From: a virus | DNA length: 64,000 nucleotides | Reading direction: 5' to 3' (one strand) | IMG/VR virus record: IMGVR_UViG_3300025872_000036 | Location: 124,001-188,000 of that record | In this document: piece after piece, positions 43,318 to 62,370 of the stretch | How positions within the stretch are numbered: position 1 is the stretch's first letter | Layout of the letters: every line of letters begins with the position of its first letter | Notes under the pieces: generated by a model | Seen by the model: the letters and a program-made list of their open reading frames with translations, nothing else | What the model was told of the DNA's origin: nothing | Database searches by the model: none | Made by a program: the position numbers and the translations under genes

Positions 43318-43485
43318 ATGAAAGATAGTGAGTTTCTTTTTTGGTTGAGAGATAGACTCATCAATGTCTACGGTGAAGATCCACATATCGACTATGTTCA
43401 AAAACTATATTCCATAGCCAGAAAAGTGGAAGATGATGAGAACTATTGGAATAGAGTAATAGATAGTTCTAGACAAACAGACTAA
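43318..43485 (+). CDS. small acidic protein, unknown
   Basis: A 55-residue protein, MKDSEFLFWLRDRLINVYGE then DPHIDYVQKLYSIARKVEDD. I chose this ATG because GGGAGAAG lies before it; the longer reading from 43279 has no ribosome site and overlaps the deformylase gene. Short proteins of the type ...F.yWL.g.... are frequent in T4-like marine phages without known function. The promoter of the modification cassette overlaps its 3' end. Confidence 0.55.
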   Translation: MKDSEFLFWLRDRLINVYGEDPHIDYVQKLYSIARKVEDDENYWNRVIDSSRQTD

Positions 43486-43498
43486 ATCATGTTATGAT
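43470..43498 (+). promoter_or_regulatory. sigma70-type promoter of the DNA-modification cassette
   Basis: TAGACA (43470-43475), 17-base spacer, TATGAT (43493-43498). Around the -10 lies ATCAT-GTT-ATGAT (43486-43498), with another ATCATA at 43507-43512 in the probable early transcribed region, so an operator is possible. The ATG follows 25 bases after the -10. Confidence 0.65.
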
Positions 43499-43522
43499 TG
43501 TTTTTTATCATAGGATATCGTG

Positions 43523-44755
43523 ATGTACCAAAAATATACCGTTGATGATGTAAAGAAGTCTTCCGCTCGTAAATTGTTCAATGTGATTTCCACGTTTGCT
43601 GGCGGCGGTGGCTCTTCTACTGGATATCGTCTTGCTGGTGGTAATATCATCGCAATCAATGAATTCGTTGAAGAAGCAATCAAGACATACTCAACGAACT
43701 TTCCTGACACCAAGATCATACCCGGCGACATCAAGAAATTGACTGCAAAAGACTTTCTTGATACAGCTGGACTCAAGCCTGGCGAACTTGATATTCTTGA
43801 TGGATCTCCACCGTGTTCAGCATTCTCTGTTGCAGGTAAGCGCGAGAAGGGTTGGGCTGGACATGTCACAGATACACGCAAGTCATACTTTGACGATGAT
43901 GGTAATATCATTGAAGAAGGCGAACTTCTTGTTCAAGAAGGTATCAAGAAGTACTCTGATGGCAAGACCGTAGAAGCCATTGAAGATCTATTTTTGGAAT
44001 TCATTCGTATCGCAAAAGAGATCAAGCCAAAGGTAATCGTTGCCGAGAACGTCAAAGGCATCACGTTTGGTGAAGCCAAAAGCAAACTATATGAGTTTGT
44101 CAATTCGTTTGAAAAGATTGGATATCAAGTTACATATCAGGTATTGAATGCAGCAGATTTTGGTGTGCCACAAGCAAGAGAGCGTACTCTATTTGTCTGC
44201 ATACGCGAAGATGTATGTGATGCAATTGGCTTGAACTTCCTCAATATTCACTCTACTGTTTTTCCTAATGCAACATATGCAAAGCACATATCTTTGCGCG
44301 AGGCAATTGAAGACATAGAGAATGATCCGAACGAATTGCAGGAACTCTATGACTATGTGCAAAATGGCTTTCAAAAAGATTGGATCACGAAACTACCTTT
44401 CAATCCAACAAGACATACAAAGCCATCGGACAAGGAATTTCGCGATTGGAATCCCAAGGCATCATGCTTCAACATGATTCGCCCATGTCCAGATCTTCCG
44501 TCTCCAACTTTGACTCAGCGCGGACAACAGAAGTCCGTATCTGGCGTGTTTCACTATGCCGAGAATAGAAAGTTCACGATCAAGGAATTGAAGCGTATCA
44601 TGAGTCTACCCGAAGACTTTGTTCTTACAGGCACGTTTGATCAACAGGCTGAGAGAATTGGACGCATGGTTGCACCAAAGATGATGGCTGCTCTTGCAGG
44701 TAGCATCTATGAAAATGTTTTGAAGCCATATAATGATAGCCAAGTTACTAAGTGA
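43523..44755 (+). CDS. cytosine-C5 DNA methyltransferase family, probable carboxymethyltransferase
   Basis: A 410-residue protein with an AGGA ribosome site seven bases before this ATG (a GTG lies three bases upstream). Motif I FAGGGGSSTGYRLAGG, motif IV GSPPCSAFS with catalytic Cys98, motif VI AENVKG with Glu175, and motif VIII QARER from residue 217 are complete, so cytosine C5 chemistry is expected. Motif X is unusual: ERIGRMVAP, with Arg381 where the family has the Asn of IGN(S/A)V. The equivalent Asn in M.MpeI is the residue whose change to Lys was reported to allow carboxy-SAM as donor. With a CmoA-like gene in the same operon, a carboxymethylcytosine product is my inference; plain methylation is the alternative. 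Confidence 0.85.
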   Translation: MYQKYTVDDVKKSSARKLFNVISTFAGGGGSSTGYRLAGGNIIAINEFVEEAIKTYSTNFPDTKIIPGDIKKLTAKDFLDTAGLKPGELDILDGSPPCSAFSVAGKREKGWAGHVTDTRKSYFDDDGNIIEEGELLVQEGIKKYSDGKTVEAIEDLFLEFIRIAKEIKPKVIVAENVKGITFGEAKSKLYEFVNSFEKIGYQVTYQVLNAADFGVPQARERTLFVCIREDVCDAIGLNFLNIHSTVFPNATYAKHISLREAIEDIENDPNELQELYDYVQNGFQKDWITKLPFNPTRHTKPSDKEFRDWNPKASCFNMIRPCPDLPSPTLTQRGQQKSVSGVFHYAENRKFTIKELKRIMSLPEDFVLTGTFDQQAERIGRMVAPKMMAALAGSIYENVLKPYNDSQVTK

Positions 44756-45524
44756 AGAAATAGAAAAAGCATCAAACGATATCAACGTCGCTGTACTTTT
44801 GTCTGGCGGCGTTGATAGCATTTCTGTGGCATTAGCAGCACATCGTGTTGGTAAGAAGATTACTGCATACACGTTTCATCTAAAAGACCAGCCGACATAT
44901 GATGCAAGTAAAGCACAAGAAATAAGTAAGATCATGGGTTGGTCGTGCAAGACGATTGAAATTCCTGTTGACAATGTTATACGGGATTTCATTCGCCTTC
45001 GTCGTGAAGTAGATTGTCAGAAGAAGACACACTATGAATGCTGCTTTCCTTTTCTATATGTCTATCCGCAAATAGAAGAGAAAGAAGTGCTTAGTGGATG
45101 GGCTGCCGATGGTTACTATGGCGTATCCAAGAAAGCCAATCTACACTACAAGCATACGATGGAAAAGTTCAACGAATTTCGTGAAGATTATTTTCTGCTT
45201 GATCACTGTGCTGGCTATCTTTGGCACAAGAGGATTGCTGATATGCACAACAAGATCTTTATCACACCATATCTAACCGAGCCAGTAAAACAGTTTTTTT
45301 GGACCAAAGACTGGTATGAATTGAATCAGCCATTTCAGAAACACCATGTAGTAGAAGCATTTGATGAATTTTCTAGATTTGGTGCCGTAAAGAAACACAT
45401 CAATCTGCAATTGGGCTCAGGTGTTGACAAACTGTTTGAATCTGTTATAATACCTGACAAGACGATCAACTATCGTAATAGAAAACGCATCATGGATATT
45501 TGCAAGGATTGGAGAAATAGATGA
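44733..45524 (+). CDS. asparagine-synthetase-like (AsnB C-terminal domain) amidating enzyme
   Basis: A 263-residue protein overlapping the methyltransferase gene by 23 bases. It has only the synthetase half of AsnB: PP-loop SGGVDS at residues 24-29 and SGWAADGYYG at 121-130, corresponding to the SGxGADExFGGY motif, plus a C-terminal FITPYLTEPVKQFFWTKD region like the R.PFLD...v of AsnB. The N-terminal glutaminase is absent, so ammonia or another amine must be supplied. These enzymes adenylate a carboxylate and form an amide. In this operon the natural candidate is the carboxyl group of carboxymethylcytosine or of carboxy-SAM; that is inference. Confidence 0.8.
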   Translation: MIAKLLSEEIEKASNDINVAVLLSGGVDSISVALAAHRVGKKITAYTFHLKDQPTYDASKAQEISKIMGWSCKTIEIPVDNVIRDFIRLRREVDCQKKTHYECCFPFLYVYPQIEEKEVLSGWAADGYYGVSKKANLHYKHTMEKFNEFREDYFLLDHCAGYLWHKRIADMHNKIFITPYLTEPVKQFFWTKDWYELNQPFQKHHVVEAFDEFSRFGAVKKHINLQLGSGVDKLFESVIIPDKTINYRNRKRIMDICKDWRNR

Positions 45525-46207
45525 CACAAAAATTTACATTTGCCCAGCGCGAAGAGGGTTTTGACAATCACATTAGCCAGTCCATTCGCGGATACAACGA
45601 CTTGATTGGTGATGTCATCAATCTCTCGCAGTATTTTGTAGAGAACGATACTGTCGTCTATGATATCGGCTGTTCAACTGGCAAGATGCTTCGTGCAATG
45701 ATTGGTCAGAACGAGAAAATTGCACCTCGTGCCAATTATGTAGGAATTGAGATTGAAGAAGATTTCTTCAAGTTCTTTGATGAGAATGTTCAGAGTAATT
45801 TGGAGTTCATTCGGAATGATGTGCGTGATGTAAGTTTTGCTGTCAATACATCTTTGATCACTTCTATTTTCACTCTTCAGTTCATGCCCAGACAAGATCG
45901 TCAGGATGTCATCAATCAAATCTATAACTGTTTGATTCCCGGTGGGGCGTTCATCTTTGCCGAGAAGACGATTGGCAACAATCCGATGATTCATGAGATG
46001 CGTACATTCACCTACTATGATTTCAAGAAACTCAGTTTCACCTATGACGATATCATGACGAAGGAAAAGAAACTGCGTTCCATGTTGAAGTCCAATAGTC
46101 GTCAGGAATTGATTGAAATGTGTGAGATTGCTGGATTCAATCCCAATTCAATTGATTCGTTCTGGCAAAACTTTGCGTTTACTGGATTCATTGCAATCAA
46201 GAACTGA
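45521..46207 (+). CDS. cmoA: CmoA-like carboxy-S-adenosylmethionine synthase
   Basis: A 228-residue Rossmann methyltransferase-fold protein overlapping the previous gene by four bases. It follows bacterial CmoA along its length: FDNHISQSIRGYNDLI (CmoA FD...I..S(V/I).GY..I), VVYDIGCSTG at 46-54, FTLQFMP at 117-123, CLIPGGAFIFAEK and DFKK...RSML with Arg186, ending FWQNFAFTGFIAIKN (CmoA W(F)Q.FNF.s.vAlK). CmoA converts SAM and prephenate to carboxy-SAM, normally for tRNA cmo5U34 with CmoB. No CmoB is in the window; the donor is more likely used by the methyltransferase upstream. It is about 20 residues shorter than the E. coli protein. Confidence 0.85.
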   Translation: MTQKFTFAQREEGFDNHISQSIRGYNDLIGDVINLSQYFVENDTVVYDIGCSTGKMLRAMIGQNEKIAPRANYVGIEIEEDFFKFFDENVQSNLEFIRNDVRDVSFAVNTSLITSIFTLQFMPRQDRQDVINQIYNCLIPGGAFIFAEKTIGNNPMIHEMRTFTYYDFKKLSFTYDDIMTKEKKLRSMLKSNSRQELIEMCEIAGFNPNSIDSFWQNFAFTGFIAIKN

Positions 46208-49866: not shown

Positions 49867-49876
49867 GTTGAATAAT

Positions 49877-50326: not shown

Positions 50327-51142
50327 ATGGAAATTTCTATCTCTGTTGACGAACTACGCAAAAGAAAGTTGTTTATCGCCACACCAATGTATGGTGGTAT
50401 GGCAAATGGACTTTACATGAAGTCCTGTCTAGATCTACAGTCTATACTAAATCAATATGGCGTTGAAGCCAAGTTTTCATTTCTATTCAACGAATCCCTC
50501 ATCACTCGCGCAAGAAATTATTTGACTGATGAGTTTTTGAGAAATGAACAGTTTACTCATCTTCTATTTTTGGATTCGGATATTCACTTTAATCCACAAG
50601 ATGTTGTCACGATGCTTGCACTTGACAAGGACATCATTGGTGGACCATATCCCAAGAAGTCAATCAATTGGGGTAATGTTGCAAACGCCGTAAGAAGCAA
50701 GCCTGATATTGAGGCTGGAGAACTTGAAGGATTGGTTGGCGAATTTGTATTCAATCCTGTTGCTGGAACAAAGCAGTTCTCTATTACTGAACCACTTGAA
50801 GTCATGGAAATCGGAACAGGTTTCATGATGATCAAGCGAGAGGTCTTCAAGAAGTTTGAAGACGCATATCCAGAGTATCGTTACAAGCCAGATCATGTTG
50901 GTCAAAAGCATTTTGACGGCTCGCGATACATTCATGCATATTTTGATACGATCATTGATCGTGGACCAAATGCTCCTGGCTCATCCGAGAGATACCTTTC
51001 AGAAGATTATTTCTTCTGTCAGATGAGCCGTAAAATCGGCATCAAGATTTGGTTGTGCCCGTGGATGAAGACGCAACACGTTGGCACATATGCGTTTACT
51101 GGTGATCTTCCAAGAATTGCACAGTATACGGGACGTATATGA
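50327..51142 (+). CDS. glycosyltransferase-like protein (GT-A type)
   Basis: A 271-residue protein; GGAG lies six bases before this ATG, and the longer TTG reading is unlikely. The N-terminal KLFIATPMYGGMANGLYMKS, then ESLITRARNYLTDEFL, FTHLLFLDSDIHFNPQDVVT (DxD-like metal site) and DIIGGPYPKKSINWGN form a GT-A Rossmann core common in T4-like phages. Near the end SEDYFFCQMSRKIGIKIWLC is typical of the acceptor-binding part. Acceptor unknown: DNA base, virion protein or host glycan. It overlaps the kinase gene by four bases and stands apart from the glycan cluster at 57.7 kb. Confidence 0.75.
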   Translation: MEISISVDELRKRKLFIATPMYGGMANGLYMKSCLDLQSILNQYGVEAKFSFLFNESLITRARNYLTDEFLRNEQFTHLLFLDSDIHFNPQDVVTMLALDKDIIGGPYPKKSINWGNVANAVRSKPDIEAGELEGLVGEFVFNPVAGTKQFSITEPLEVMEIGTGFMMIKREVFKKFEDAYPEYRYKPDHVGQKHFDGSRYIHAYFDTIIDRGPNAPGSSERYLSEDYFFCQMSRKIGIKIWLCPWMKTQHVGTYAFTGDLPRIAQYTGRI

Positions 51143-51747
51143 TTATTGGATTTGTTGGTACTATCGGTAGCGGTAAAGGAACTGCTGGCGATATATTGGC
51201 GCAGCGGGGCTTCTTTACTGAAAGTTTCGCTGCGCCTCTAAAGGATATAACTGCAAGTCTTTTCGGTTGGCCAAGACATCTTGTCGAAGGTGATACAACT
51301 GAGTCTCGCGAATTTCGTGAAACAAGAGACGAGTGGTGGTCCAATAGATTCGGCAAAGATATCACTCCGCGTTTGATATTGCAGCTCATTGGTACTGAGT
51401 GTATGCGCGAGTGTATACACTCAGACTTCTGGGTTGCGTGTCTCGAAAGACGAATAAAGCAGAATCACGATTATGTGATTACAGATGTTCGTTTTCCTAA
51501 CGAGATTGATTCCATTCACAAGATGGGTGGAAAGATTGTAGAGATTCAACGCGGAAAACCTGCGGATTGGTATGTACATGCTTGCATGTATAACAATGGC
51601 GATTCTGGTGTAAAGCCTAGTGCTCATTATTCGGAGTGGGCATGGATGGGATACAAGACTGACTACACATTGAACAATGATGGGTCTTTGGAAGACCTTG
51701 AAAATGACATTGAATTGATGCTTGAGTGCTTGACACCACCAAGGTAA
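51139..51747 (+). CDS. gp1: deoxynucleoside monophosphate kinase gp1
   Basis: A 202-residue kinase (T4 gp1 is 241). P-loop GTIGSGKGT near residues 7-15, then SFAAPLKDITASLFGWPRHL, TPRLILQLIGTECMRECIHS, DFWVACLERRIK and VITDVRFPNEIDSIHKMGGK, all as in phage dNMP kinases. It converts dNMPs, including those from degraded host DNA, to dNDPs. Its 3' end contains the -35 of the sliding clamp promoter. Confidence 0.9.
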   Translation: MIIGFVGTIGSGKGTAGDILAQRGFFTESFAAPLKDITASLFGWPRHLVEGDTTESREFRETRDEWWSNRFGKDITPRLILQLIGTECMRECIHSDFWVACLERRIKQNHDYVITDVRFPNEIDSIHKMGGKIVEIQRGKPADWYVHACMYNNGDSGVKPSAHYSEWAWMGYKTDYTLNNDGSLEDLENDIELMLECLTPPR

Positions 51748-57401: not shown

Positions 57402-57725
57402 ATGAGATATATTGGATACTCAGTCTCTCGTTGTATACGCGACATAGTAAAGAAGCGTGTCAATATCTACGCAGTAGAAGTTATCATTGGTCGTACCTCA
57501 ATAGAAAATGAGCAGCATGTAGCAGAAGTTGCTCGCGGATATCACAGTCTACCAAAGGGCGATTATCGTTCTTGGAATGATTTGGATTATGATGCATGTC
57601 ATGGAGTTCTTCTGGAACTGTATCGTGATGGTAAGTTACATCAGCCAAGATTGTTTGGTAAGTATCCAATTCGCATGGACAATCATTGGGGTGTGATTGC
57701 TCCGTTTCCCATGAGCGCATTCTGA
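57402..57725 (+). CDS. unknown small protein at the head of the glycan cluster
   Basis: A 107-residue protein; GGAG lies eight bases before this ATG, and the longer TTG reading is unlikely. MRYIGYSVSRCIRDIVKKRV, then VEVIIGRTSIENEQHVAEVA and HGVLLELYRDGKLHQPRLFG, ending WGVIAPFPMSAF. No family is recognised. The stop overlaps the ATG of the first glycosyltransferase, so it is translated with that cluster, but its basic first half does not reveal a role. Confidence 0.55.
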   Translation: MRYIGYSVSRCIRDIVKKRVNIYAVEVIIGRTSIENEQHVAEVARGYHSLPKGDYRSWNDLDYDACHGVLLELYRDGKLHQPRLFGKYPIRMDNHWGVIAPFPMSAF

Positions 57726-58450
57726 TGAGAGCCGTTGTTATAATTCCAACAACAGGCGACAAAAAAGTCCTAGAAGCAATCAAGAGCGTCGAAAATCAAA
57801 CTTATGCTGATACGAGTTATCTCGTCGTTGTTGATGGTAACAAGTTCAAGCATAAGTTTGATGATCTGTTTGTAAATTCTGATCCATACATGCCACCTAA
57901 AGATGTCGTGTATCTAAAGCACAACACAGGTGCTGATGGATTCTACGGTCATCGCATATATGCAGGATTCTCGCATCTGGTGAATGAAGATATTGTTCTC
58001 TTTCTTGATCAGGACAATTGGTTTGAGCCAGATCATGTTGAAAAACTTATAAGCATAATTCAAACTGAAAATCTTACATGGGCTCATAGCCTTCGCAACA
58101 TCTATGACAAAGACAACAATTTTCTTTGTCGTGATGATTGCGAAAGTTTAGGTAAATGGCCTGTGTGGAATGGTCTAGATAATTTTCATGTAGACACATC
58201 TGCATATGCATTTCGTCGTGAATTCATATCTCAAGTCGCATCGCTTTGGCACTCTGGTTATGCTGGTGATCGTCGCTTTTTCAATATGGTTAGAACAATA
58301 CCAAATGCGCCATATGGCACAAGTGGTGCATACACATTGAATTATAGACTTGATGGTAATCCAAATTCAGCGTCACCCGACTTCTTTCTTCATGGCAATA
58401 GAGTCATGGAGCAAAAATATTATGGAAAATATCCTTGGAGAAAAGCATGA
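57725..58450 (+). CDS. GT2-type glycosyltransferase
   Basis: A 241-residue protein whose ATG overlaps the preceding stop; the longer reading from 57686 is a shadow. MRAVVIIPTTGDKKVLEAIK then VENQTYADTSYLVVVDGNKF is the family 2 opening, and IVLFLDQDNWFEPDHVEKLI contains a DQD metal site. SGYAGDRRFFNMVRTI is the downstream acceptor region. It probably transfers a sugar from a nucleotide donor; the acceptor is unknown. First clear enzyme of the cluster that continues to the end of the window. Confidence 0.85.
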   Translation: MRAVVIIPTTGDKKVLEAIKSVENQTYADTSYLVVVDGNKFKHKFDDLFVNSDPYMPPKDVVYLKHNTGADGFYGHRIYAGFSHLVNEDIVLFLDQDNWFEPDHVEKLISIIQTENLTWAHSLRNIYDKDNNFLCRDDCESLGKWPVWNGLDNFHVDTSAYAFRREFISQVASLWHSGYAGDRRFFNMVRTIPNAPYGTSGAYTLNYRLDGNPNSASPDFFLHGNRVMEQKYYGKYPWRKA

Positions 58451-59025
58451 GTAACATAAAAATTGAATATATGCAACAGTATGGCTCTGGTAAGATATTT
58501 GTAGAGACTGGAACATATCTTGGAGATACCGTTGAACTTGCATTGAATGCAGGATTTGAGTATGTACATACTATTGAAGTGGATCAAGGTATGTATGATA
58601 AGTGTCACGCACGATTCAAGGATAATTCTAAGGTCAAGTTGTGGCTTGGTGATTCGGTAGATATCATTCCACAGATTGTTGATGAATTGATAGAACCAGC
58701 AACATTTTGGCTTGATGCTCATGCAAGTGGTCCACTTCAAGGTGGTCGTTATGCACCATGTCCACTTGTGCTGGAACTTGAAGCAATCTATGGAAAGAAG
58801 AAGTTGCGTTTTACTGAACGTGGCTCTGAAATGTTTCGCGAAAAGTCTTCAATAGATACACACACGATCATGATTGATGATCGGCGTCTATTGGGTTCTG
58901 CTGAATGGGGATATGTGCAAGAGAAGCAGATCATGGATCTTCTATTTGCAATCAATCCAAACTATAAGATTCATTATCTTGATGGTCATCAAGCCAATGA
59001 TATCATTTGTGCTACGGTGAGATAA
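58447..59025 (+). CDS. methyltransferase-fold protein of the glycan cluster
   Basis: A 192-residue protein in an ATGA overlap with the GT2 gene. GSGKIFVETGTYLGDTVELA, FEYVHTIEVDQGMYDKCHAR and VKLWLGDSVDIIPQIV follow the SAM-dependent Rossmann order (motif I E-G.Y.GdT, acidic Glu at the end of strand 2, GDS). FWLDAHASGPLQGGRYAPCP and HTIMIDDRRL are found in phage and bacterial proteins of this kind. The substrate is probably a sugar or glycan; not determined. Confidence 0.7.
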   Translation: MSNIKIEYMQQYGSGKIFVETGTYLGDTVELALNAGFEYVHTIEVDQGMYDKCHARFKDNSKVKLWLGDSVDIIPQIVDELIEPATFWLDAHASGPLQGGRYAPCPLVLELEAIYGKKKLRFTERGSEMFREKSSIDTHTIMIDDRRLLGSAEWGYVQEKQIMDLLFAINPNYKIHYLDGHQANDIICATVR

Positions 59026-59026
59026 C

Positions 59027-59890
59027 ATGAAAGATCTTATTTTAGGATGCATCACAAATTACACTTTTGACAAGATTGCAAACTGGGTCAATTCAATTGA
59101 ACGTTCGGGCTTTACTGGACACAAAGTTGTCATTGCATATAATGTTGGATTTGACATTGTAGATGAACTAACAAAAAGAAACTTTACTGTAGTCACTTTC
59201 AATCGTGATGACGCGAATAGACGATTTACATATCGTGAAAATTTCAATATTGTCGTTGATCGTTTCTATCATTCTTGGAAAGTATTGAGTGATATTGAAA
59301 ACGAGGTGCGATATGTGATAGCCACGGATGTTAGAGATGTTGTTTTTCAAACAAATCCTACAGAATGGTTAGATAGTCTTTTGCCCTCAGAATTTAATAC
59401 GTTAATTGCATCAACCGAAGGGATTAGATATAAGAATGAAGTTTGGGGAAACAACAATATGAAGTTGAGTTTTCCTTTCGTTCATGAATACATGATGAAT
59501 AGGGGCATTTATAATGCGGGTGTCATGGCAGGAAAAGTGTCTGTAATCAAGGATTTGTTCTTGAATATATTCATGATCTGTGCTAATATGCCTCATACTA
59601 TTCCTGGTGGAGGTGGACCAGATCAAGCTGCATATAACGTATTGCTAACAATGAATCAGTATGAAAATATCACACGATTTACTATTGCCAAAGATGCATG
59701 GGCAGCACAACTTGGAACAGTTGCTGATCCAAACAAGATAAATCAGTACAGACCATACTTGACAGACTTTGAGCCAGTCATTCAAAACGGCGAAGTCTTC
59801 AATAACGAAGGTCGTAAGTACTGCATTGTTCATCAATACGATAGAGTGCCGAATCTTCTTCCACTAATTAATTCAAAATATGGAACATGA
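59027..59890 (+). CDS. putative glycosyltransferase
   Basis: A 287-residue protein. The N-terminal ILGCITNYTFDKIANWVNSI and SGFTGHKVVIAYNVGFDIVD, then DIENEVRYVIATDVRDVVFQ with a DVRD metal site, and later GVMAGKVSVIKDLFLNIF and IPGGGGPDQAAYNVLL, which resembles the end of GT-A enzymes that handle nucleotide sugars (..D(Q)a..n.l). This pattern is seen in phage and bacterial glycan clusters. Donor and acceptor are unknown. It follows the methyltransferase by one base. Confidence 0.7.
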   Translation: MKDLILGCITNYTFDKIANWVNSIERSGFTGHKVVIAYNVGFDIVDELTKRNFTVVTFNRDDANRRFTYRENFNIVVDRFYHSWKVLSDIENEVRYVIATDVRDVVFQTNPTEWLDSLLPSEFNTLIASTEGIRYKNEVWGNNNMKLSFPFVHEYMMNRGIYNAGVMAGKVSVIKDLFLNIFMICANMPHTIPGGGGPDQAAYNVLLTMNQYENITRFTIAKDAWAAQLGTVADPNKINQYRPYLTDFEPVIQNGEVFNNEGRKYCIVHQYDRVPNLLPLINSKYGT

Positions 59891-59891
59891 C

Positions 59892-60527
59892 ATGTCAGAT
59901 GTAATTAGAATCAATACTGCAACAAACGCTTTTCAAAAAGTTGAAAGACCATTAACGATTGCCGAATATAAAGAGCAAGGAAAATGGCCATTTGATTTTA
60001 TTTCTGGAAAAGGTCTTGTTAGTGTAATCAACAATCTATCTGTAAGTCTAGATAGAAATGTTGTTGGACTAGAAATTGGTATTTGTAAAGGTGAAAACAT
60101 TGTTCACTTCTTTGAACAGACAAATAGAATCGACAAGATTCATTGTATTGATCCATATCTACCATACATGGATTGGGTTGGACCAGTAACGCAAGAGGAT
60201 ATGGATCTATGGTATGATATCACGATGAAGAATTTTGCTCCGTACATGGACAAGATCGTGATGTACAAGGACACATCAGACAATTGCGTAAGCAAGTTTA
60301 AAGATGGACAATTTGACTACATCTTCATAGATGGCGATCATTCATATGAAGGTGTTATTAAAGACTTATATAATTATTATGACAAGTTAAGAGTTGGTGG
60401 TATTTTTTCTGGTCATGATATTAATCTTCCAGACGTTCAAAGAGCATTGAAAGAGTTTAGATCAATAAAGGGTATTGAAAAAGAAATGAAGTTTACTGAT
60501 GTAAACGTTTGGTACTGGGTAAAGTAA
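59892..60527 (+). CDS. class I SAM methyltransferase of the glycan cluster
   Basis: A 211-residue protein. I use the second ATG, after the preceding stop; an upstream ATG at 59880 adds four residues. NVVGLEIGICKGENIVHFFE (motif I), KIHCIDPYLPY (acidic end of strand 2), DYIFIDGDHSYEGVIKDLYN (the family-24 methyltransferase signature iDgdHsYe.v..Dl) and KLRVGGIFSGHDINLPDVQR match methyltransferase type 24. It probably methylates a sugar or sugar nucleotide. The stop overlaps the next ATG. Confidence 0.8.
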   Translation: MSDVIRINTATNAFQKVERPLTIAEYKEQGKWPFDFISGKGLVSVINNLSVSLDRNVVGLEIGICKGENIVHFFEQTNRIDKIHCIDPYLPYMDWVGPVTQEDMDLWYDITMKNFAPYMDKIVMYKDTSDNCVSKFKDGQFDYIFIDGDHSYEGVIKDLYNYYDKLRVGGIFSGHDINLPDVQRALKEFRSIKGIEKEMKFTDVNVWYWVK

Positions 60528-61396
60528 TGCAAAAGAAACCATTGAAACTTGGATTTGTTGACGTATGCACATCCGAGTTTTATGAGACGATTCTATCTCA
60601 AAGATATGACTTGACGATAGATAATGAAAATCCAGATTTTCTTTTCTTTGGTGATGAAAACTTTGGAACAAAAAATCTCCAATACTCAAAAGATAAGTGC
60701 ATAAAGATTTTTCATACTGGCGAAAATCGTAGACCAGAAAATTATGATTGTCATTATGCCACGACTTTTGATCATAATCCTAATCCATGGCATTATAGAT
60801 TACCTGGTTATGCTTTGGTTCCATTCTTCTATAAGAAATTTGAGTTTACACATATTTTTAATGCACACAACATCAAGCATCTAAAAACAAAGTTTTGTGT
60901 GTTTATACATCGCAATCCAAACAACAATGTGCGAAATGCTGTATTTCATGAACTATGCAAGTATAAGAAAGTTGATAGTGCCGGACCATTATTTAATAAT
61001 ATTGGACATGTAATTAGTCCAGACTATGATGCAAAACTTGATTTTATCAAGAACTACAAGTTTGTTCTTTCATTTGAGAATAGTCCACATCCAGGATATG
61101 TGACTGAAAAGATAATGGATGGATTCTATGTCAATTCGGTTCCAATCTACTGGGGTTCATCTACGATAGATCTAGACTTCAATGAAGCATCTTTCATCAA
61201 TGCGGGAAATTTTGATTCAATGGAATCATTCATCAATTATGTAATCAAGATTGATAACGATGATACACTATACAACAACATGATTTCACAACCAAAACTA
61301 AAGCATGGTCTTCCCCCTTCGTGCATGATTTATGATAATTTCTTGAATTGGTTTGATGCTATTGTATACAATAAATTATATCCGAGAGTGAAATGA
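60527..61396 (+). CDS. GT10 family alpha-fucosyltransferase-like enzyme
   Basis: A 289-residue protein whose ATG overlaps the previous stop. The donor-binding motif of GT10 is clear: YKFVLSFENSPHPGYVTEKI then DGFYVNSVPIYWGSSTI (family: fkF.l.fENs....YvTEKi...l..g.vPvy.G.). IFHTGENRRPENYDCHYATT is the usual acceptor-side start. GT10 enzymes add fucose or a related deoxyhexose alpha-1,3/1,4. In a phage this could decorate an O-antigen-like or virion glycan. Confidence 0.9.
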   Translation: MQKKPLKLGFVDVCTSEFYETILSQRYDLTIDNENPDFLFFGDENFGTKNLQYSKDKCIKIFHTGENRRPENYDCHYATTFDHNPNPWHYRLPGYALVPFFYKKFEFTHIFNAHNIKHLKTKFCVFIHRNPNNNVRNAVFHELCKYKKVDSAGPLFNNIGHVISPDYDAKLDFIKNYKFVLSFENSPHPGYVTEKIMDGFYVNSVPIYWGSSTIDLDFNEASFINAGNFDSMESFINYVIKIDNDDTLYNNMISQPKLKHGLPPSCMIYDNFLNWFDAIVYNKLYPRVK

Positions 61397-62370
61397 AAAA
61401 GCACAAGAAGATCATTGTATGGGGTGCAAAATATGAAACGGGACACACTCATGCATTTACACATGCAGCTTTTGTCAAAGGCGCACAATACCTAAATGAA
61501 GAAGTCTATTGGCTTGACGATACAGACAATGTTGATCCTTCATTCTTTGACGATTCGCTAATCGTATCAGAACATTGGATAGCAACAACACACCCAAGAA
61601 GTCATCGTCTACCACTAAGAAAGTCATCAACATATGTGATGAATTACTTGGGCAACAAGAAAGGCACCGACAATCCGGGCGCTTCATATTATCTTGGTAG
61701 AGTTGGAAGAATCATAGATTTTAGATTTGCAAACAATTGGTCTGACAAATATTGGGAATACAAATACGAACCTGAAAAGTATATCCCAATAAATGATGGT
61801 GTTTCTCATCTAGAAAGAGGATCTGAATACGATAATTTCTATAGCATGTGGGCTACAGATCTCATGCCAAACGAGATCAATTTTGATGATTGCTTGACAC
61901 CATGGAAAGAACCAAAGCACGTTTTCTTTTCTGGTACAATTCGTGAAGACAATCGTGATCAATTTGAGCCATTTATTCGTGCATGTTCAGAAAATAAAAT
62001 GAATTTTTACTTCAATGATGTGTGGCGTCAAGTTCTAACGATTGAATCCGTTAAGAGAGCATCACTTGATGCGTTTCTTGCTCTTGAACTTCGTCCAAAG
62101 TTTCATGTTGATATTGGATACAAGTCATGTCGCGCATTCAAGGTCATTAGTTATGGGCAACTTGGCATGACAAACTCTCGCGCTGTTTATGATTTCTTTG
62201 ATCAGGAAATTGCATTTCATGAAGATCCGTATCAGCTATTCCATGTAGCATCAGAGATGCGAAACAATCCAAAGACAAAAGATCTTGTTCTCAATCAAAT
62301 GAAGAAGGTAAAAGAGAAGCATACATATGCTAGTAGGATGAAGGATATTATTACTGCTTGTGAAATGTGA
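61393..62370 (+). CDS. putative glycosyltransferase of the glycan cluster
   Basis: A 325-residue protein overlapping the fucosyltransferase by four bases. KKIIVWGAKYETGHTHAFTH opens it and a second half with HVFFSGTIREDNRDQFEPFI and YKSCRAFKVISYGQLGMTNS, FDQEIAFHEDPYQLFHVASE looks like a GT-B C-terminal domain (a ..ka..........G.p.......h.dp.el). I place it among GT-B glycosyltransferases from that pattern only. Donor and acceptor unknown. Confidence 0.55.
   Translation: MKKHKKIIVWGAKYETGHTHAFTHAAFVKGAQYLNEEVYWLDDTDNVDPSFFDDSLIVSEHWIATTHPRSHRLPLRKSSTYVMNYLGNKKGTDNPGASYYLGRVGRIIDFRFANNWSDKYWEYKYEPEKYIPINDGVSHLERGSEYDNFYSMWATDLMPNEINFDDCLTPWKEPKHVFFSGTIREDNRDQFEPFIRACSENKMNFYFNDVWRQVLTIESVKRASLDAFLALELRPKFHVDIGYKSCRAFKVISYGQLGMTNSRAVYDFFDQEIAFHEDPYQLFHVASEMRNNPKTKDLVLNQMKKVKEKHTYASRMKDIITACEM

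Follow-up and report, generated by a model that had tools for sequence, protein, structure and literature searches.

We found three overlapping genes in a T4-like phage that most likely form a CmoX-CmoY-CmoA DNA hypermodification operon, with glycine as the most likely amine. We put the probability of this reading at roughly 0.9. The gene set, its order, the overlaps, the residues of the encoded proteins and the linkage of the genes in other phages all point to this function, and each chemical step is modelled on the enzymes of Synechococcus phage S-B43.

The genes occur in an IMG/VR virus record of 196,948 bases of metagenome DNA, of which we analysed bases 124001-188000 (a stretch of 64,000 nucleotides that we call the window). 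The virus has portal, sheath, capsid, clamp and clamp-loader genes of the T4-like type. The major capsid protein shares ~66% identity with the counterparts in phages DLP_6 (Stenotrophomonas) and Melnitz (Methylophilales), and the nearest relatives of this protein are found in Stenotrophomonas, Methylophilales and Pelagibacter phages. A deoxynucleotide monophosphate kinase gene (window 51139-51747) lies immediately ahead of the T4-like sliding clamp gene, and a gene run at 57686-62370 includes a gene at 60509-61396 that resembles GT10 fucosyltransferases, as well as a weak match to a glycosyltransferase at 61393-62370.

On the + strand, cmoX is followed by cmoY and cmoA, and the reading frames overlap by 23 nt and then by 4 nt (Table 1). 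The protein families that the first-pass annotation had assigned to these genes hold: we obtained matches to PF00145 (C-5 cytosine-specific DNA methylase, E 6e-58), to PF00733 (asparagine synthase domain, E 5e-12) and, as the best NCBIfam match of the third protein, to TIGR00740 (CmoA, E 6e-28). A search elsewhere in the record found no second cytosine methyltransferase or AsnB gene.

Table 1. Features of the candidate hypermodification locus (window coordinates)
Feature	Position	Strand	Details
Candidate sigma-70-like promoter upstream of cmoX	43470..43498	+	TAGACA-17-TATGAT, TG ahead of second hexamer; 10/12 matches
cmoX-like, cytosine-C5 carboxymethyltransferase (predicted)	43523..44755	+	410 aa; alternative GTG start 43520; PF00145; 8YF3 match
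SPPC catalytic motif codons	43805..43816	+	Cys98 = nucleophile; aligned with SpCmoX S95-C98
Arg381 codon	44663..44665	+	Motif X IGRMVAP; aligned with SpCmoX Arg350
cmoY-like, AsnB-type ATP-dependent amide ligase (predicted)	44733..45524	+	263 aa; without glutaminase domain; PF00733; 51% to SpCmoY
LSGGVDSI codons, ATP-binding loop of N-type ATP pyrophosphatase fold	44799..44822	+	S24, G26, D28, S29 invariant in 31 CmoY
Perfect sigma-70 consensus inside cmoY	45424..45451	+	TTGACA-16-TATAAT, ~70 nt before cmoA; 12/12 matches
cmoA-like, carboxy-SAM synthase (predicted)	45521..46207	+	228 aa; TIGR00740; 46% to active SpCmoA

According to the proposed scheme, CmoA would make carboxy-SAM (Cx-SAM) from host SAM and prephenate. 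CmoX would flip a cytosine out of the phage DNA, Cys98 would attack C6, and the carboxymethyl group would be transferred to C5. Arg381 would hold the carboxylate of the donor, such that Cx-SAM is used in place of SAM. CmoY would then activate the new carboxylate with ATP and join an amine to it, most likely glycine, yielding 5-glycylcarboxymethylcytosine. The likely purpose would be to shield the phage DNA from host nucleases. The attached amine and the modified sequence context are the least certain parts of the scheme.

It could be argued that these are decaying or unexpressed genes in a phage with unmodified DNA, given that the phage is known here from metagenome sequence only. However, the three overlapping frames are intact, all catalytic residues are present, and other contigs have the same gene order in several copies that are identical or 82-95% identical. 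We consider decay highly improbable.

The pathway was demonstrated in phage S-B43 in a study published in December 2025 (Nat Commun, PMC12783734). S-B43 CmoA makes Cx-SAM, and SpCmoX makes 5-carboxymethylcytosine (5cxmC) at GC sites. In crystal structure 8YF3, Arg350 of SpCmoX, which corresponds to HhaI Asn304, contacts the carboxylate/carboxymethyl group of Cx-SAM. SpCmoX does not accept SAM, and its R350N variant takes neither SAM nor Cx-SAM. SpCmoY, an AMP-forming AsnB homologue, couples 5cxmC with glycine to give 5gcxmC, which was measured in S-B43 virion DNA (PMC12783734). The study also reported that 5cxmC DNA resists HhaI in vitro; by analogy, protection from restriction is a likely role in the present phage. 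The GC dinucleotide is slightly more frequent in the window than expected (1.18), which is uninformative for or against the scheme.

For all three window proteins, the closest characterised matches are the experimentally studied S-B43 enzymes, with 49% pairwise identity for CmoX, 51% over nearly the full length for CmoY and 46% for CmoA, which supports, by analogy, the carboxymethylcytosine pathway proposed in the first-pass annotation. That proposal is right in substance, yet it was already published. The study drew on IMG/VR, among other sources, for its 5,615 candidate CmoX sequences (PMC12783734), so the window contig or a near relative may already be in that set.

Residues of the methyltransferase and the carboxy-SAM synthase

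The best PDB match of the CmoX-like protein is 8YF3 (E 1e-110). Motif X of 5-methylcytosine methyltransferases of the Dcm/HhaI type has an Asn (IGNxV), and the window protein has Arg381 instead. The placement of this residue at the Asn position was claimed earlier and is correct, as it aligns both with Arg350 of SpCmoX and with Asn in the FGNSV motif of HhaI. The window protein has the same residue at every SpCmoX position named in the published study (F25, E47, F48, D69, S95-C98 and R350; PMC12783734). The two proteins also agree at the Glu of ENV and at each Arg of the QARER motif. A role of Arg381 in the use of carboxy-SAM, which had been suggested previously, gains support from this match to the experimentally studied S-B43 enzyme. 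Relative to SpCmoX, the window protein has ~19 extra residues shortly after the catalytic motif, and these could change the target specificity.

The CmoA-like protein scores 98 bits against its NCBIfam family and so misses the equivalog cut-off of 193 bits. Active SpCmoA, with 116 bits, misses it too. The cut-off therefore does not separate phage CmoA proteins, and we dismissed the low family score as counter-evidence. The position of E. coli CmoA Arg199, presumably a ligand contact, is Glu182 in the window protein and Glu188 in active SpCmoA. Since both phage enzymes depart from the E. coli site alike, Arg199 does not define phage CmoA.

The ligase and its likely product

The first-pass annotation described the ligase as having no glutaminase domain, and its 263 aa indeed comprise the ATP-pyrophosphatase half alone. 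A phmmer search of the ligase against PDB sequences gave no match, but a fold search with its AlphaFold model (mean pLDDT 90) did, the nearest solved folds being beta-lactam synthetase and asparagine synthetase B (AsnB). Our alignment of 31 CmoY members contains 39 invariant residues. SpCmoY, which is outside that alignment, shares 39/39 of them, whereas 10 to 15 of the 39 are lost in the PaBG ligase and in those of a Staphylococcus phage and of Erwinia phages. Among the residues altered in the PaBG and Erwinia SNUABM5 ligases are K97, R250, R252 and D255, which conservation makes candidates for binding the glycine carboxylate.

Based on its overall similarity to SpCmoY, the window ligase most likely joins glycine. 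The earlier proposal was that the carboxymethyl group is converted to an amide. The match to S-B43 CmoY supports an amide-forming third step, but the product is probably not the primary amide: SpCmoY, as the nearest characterised ligase, couples glycine, and we favour the glycine amide because of the level of identity and the invariant residues that the two ligases share. As the main product, a primary amide is unlikely given this match.

A broader alternative keeps the first two steps and assumes free ammonia, or an amine other than glycine, as the substrate of CmoY, which would give 5-carbamoylmethylcytosine or a different amide. The ligase has the fold of AsnB and beta-lactam synthetase, enzymes of varied nucleophiles, and relatives with glutaminase as well as clusters with different active-site residues have been reported (PMC12783734). 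However, the window ligase has no glutaminase domain as a source of ammonia, and it has kept the residues in common with a glycine ligase, several of which are lost in more distant phage ligases. We therefore consider this alternative unlikely, and prefer glycine as the amine.

Linkage to cmoA and the residue at motif X

A survey of the link between motif X Arg and cmoA had been named as a check on the proposed pathway. Our survey started from CmoY, CmoX and CmoA separately, and duplicates were removed. A pattern next to motif X served for the CmoX-side scan, and the CmoA-side scan used CmoA patterns alone, independent of CmoX. A methyltransferase with motif X Arg is present in 101 deduplicated cmoA-bearing loci, 55 of which also have CmoY. 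Motif X Asn was found in none of the deduplicated cmoA-bearing loci.

As controls, we used relatives of the methyltransferases of Melnitz and of phage RB43. The Melnitz-type controls have Leu at motif X in 80/80 cases, and 64 have a TET/JBP-type gene in the flanking stretch. Relatives of the window methyltransferase with motif X Leu (L180:2758-4942, L184-L263) mostly have such a gene nearby and no cmoA. Asn is found in all 37 RB43-type controls that aligned at motif X, and 3 more are unreadable there. No match to cmoA was found in the flanks of these 117 controls, which extend to at most 6 kb and are short on some contigs, such that a distant cmoA is possible. The control counts (80, 37 and 117) include duplicates, especially in the RB43 set with its many copies of one prophage gene, and overstate the number of independent cases. 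The survey thus bears out the proposed link, and it adds a control that is missing from the published study's main text: Arg occurs with cmoA, and non-Arg relatives occur without a nearby cmoA.

These results bear on the possibility that the window encodes an ordinary 5-methylcytosine methyltransferase beside a CmoA-like gene that is there by chance and serves tRNA or small molecules. Each of the two proteins is part of a large SAM-dependent family, and the known cellular role of CmoA is tRNA wobble modification (PMC12783734). However, the change from Asn to Arg lies precisely where SpCmoX binds Cx-SAM, and SpCmoX refuses SAM (PMC12783734). Given this match and the linkage of Arg to cmoA, we rejected the plain methyltransferase as highly improbable, in favour of the carboxymethyltransferase.

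Within one family of SPPC-type cytosine methyltransferases of phages, the residue at motif X might mark the handle that is installed. Arg with CmoA would indicate a carboxymethyl group that is then amidated, and Leu with TET/JBP would indicate a methyl group that is then oxidised; related phages would have switched between these routes. We give this idea even odds. The neighbour of the Melnitz methyltransferase gene encodes a TET/JBP oxygenase according to Pfam (E 4e-11). TET and the Leu class are absent from the main text of PMC12783734.

Some loci deviate from the common arrangement. In two Staphylococcus phages (L100:7461-8465, L102:6675-7670), cmoA adjoins an HhaI-like methyltransferase with GSPC and with Gly at motif X (VGGVINQ). 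These enzymes are outside the definition by SPPC and Arg, and it is possible that they accept Cx-SAM in another way. Eleven loci (L075, L080, L086, L091-L094, L096, L114, L115, L124) have two CmoX-type genes, both with motif X Arg, which perhaps have different target sequences. In Dickeya phage AD1 (L181:2884-5013), an intein-like insert splits the CmoX-type methyltransferase right before the catalytic Cys (SPP / C), motif X Arg is retained, and an AsnB-like ligase is ~15 kb from the methyltransferase. The methyltransferase matches in Erwinia relatives are likewise long and in two pieces.

Of the deduplicated loci, 46 (e.g. L134, L136, L138, L145-L149) have cmoA and cmoX and no recognisable CmoY in the flanking stretch. 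We found no obvious ligase as an alternative partner in these loci; the recurrent genes, such as those for UvsX, a helicase and DNA polymerase, mostly function in replication or recombination. An adenine methyltransferase that is MT-A70-like by sequence reading also recurs. Either the DNA of these phages has bare 5cxmC, or a ligase goes unrecognised.

Promoters and comparison with known systems

The three genes had previously been placed behind one promoter. Upstream of cmoX, we found a candidate site with both hexamers identical in relatives L023 and L025. Sites of the 10/12 type are not enriched in the region (13 vs 11.6 in shuffles), and the site is a plausible, if weak, promoter. The site inside cmoY is a perfect match. 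It is kept in L007, L008, L009, L018 and L025 and lost in L010, although this conservation is weak evidence because the site overlaps coding sequence. Four 12/12 sites occur in the window (40492, 45424, 49838 and 56025). Each lies on the coding strand, and two directly precede predicted genes at 49875 and 56111. Given the perfect match and this pattern, cmoA probably has an additional promoter of its own within cmoY. Thus, a candidate promoter is present where a single one was proposed, but it is probably not the only one.

The locus resembles that of S-B43 in its three enzymes (46-51% identity), the CmoX contact residues, the free-standing ligase without a glutaminase domain and the overlapping genes. 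By contrast, the gene order is X-Y-A in the window and A-Y-X in S-B43, and the window has the extra CmoX residues and the promoter-like site before cmoA inside cmoY. Synechococcus phage S-CRM01 has a similar pair (CmoX ~51-53% and CmoA 50-53% identical, with motif X Arg), but no CmoY was found there within ~5 kb. The carboxymethyltransferase M.MpeI N374K, compared by its description in PMC12783734, likewise has a charged residue where motif X normally has Asn, which enables it to use Cx-SAM, and it prefers CG sites. Unlike the window enzyme with its Arg, it is engineered and has Lys. Melnitz, already similar in its capsid protein, has an SPPC-type methyltransferase that is ~40% identical. However, its motif X residue is Leu, no cmoA was found and a TET/JBP gene is next; its route is presumably to methylate and then oxidise.

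The locus would be a further case of DNA hypermodification based on carboxymethylcytosine, in a T4-like phage, and does not by itself represent a new type of chemistry. An additional observation that may merit follow-up is the split at motif X among Arg, Leu and Asn, which goes with CmoA, TET/JBP or neither of them.
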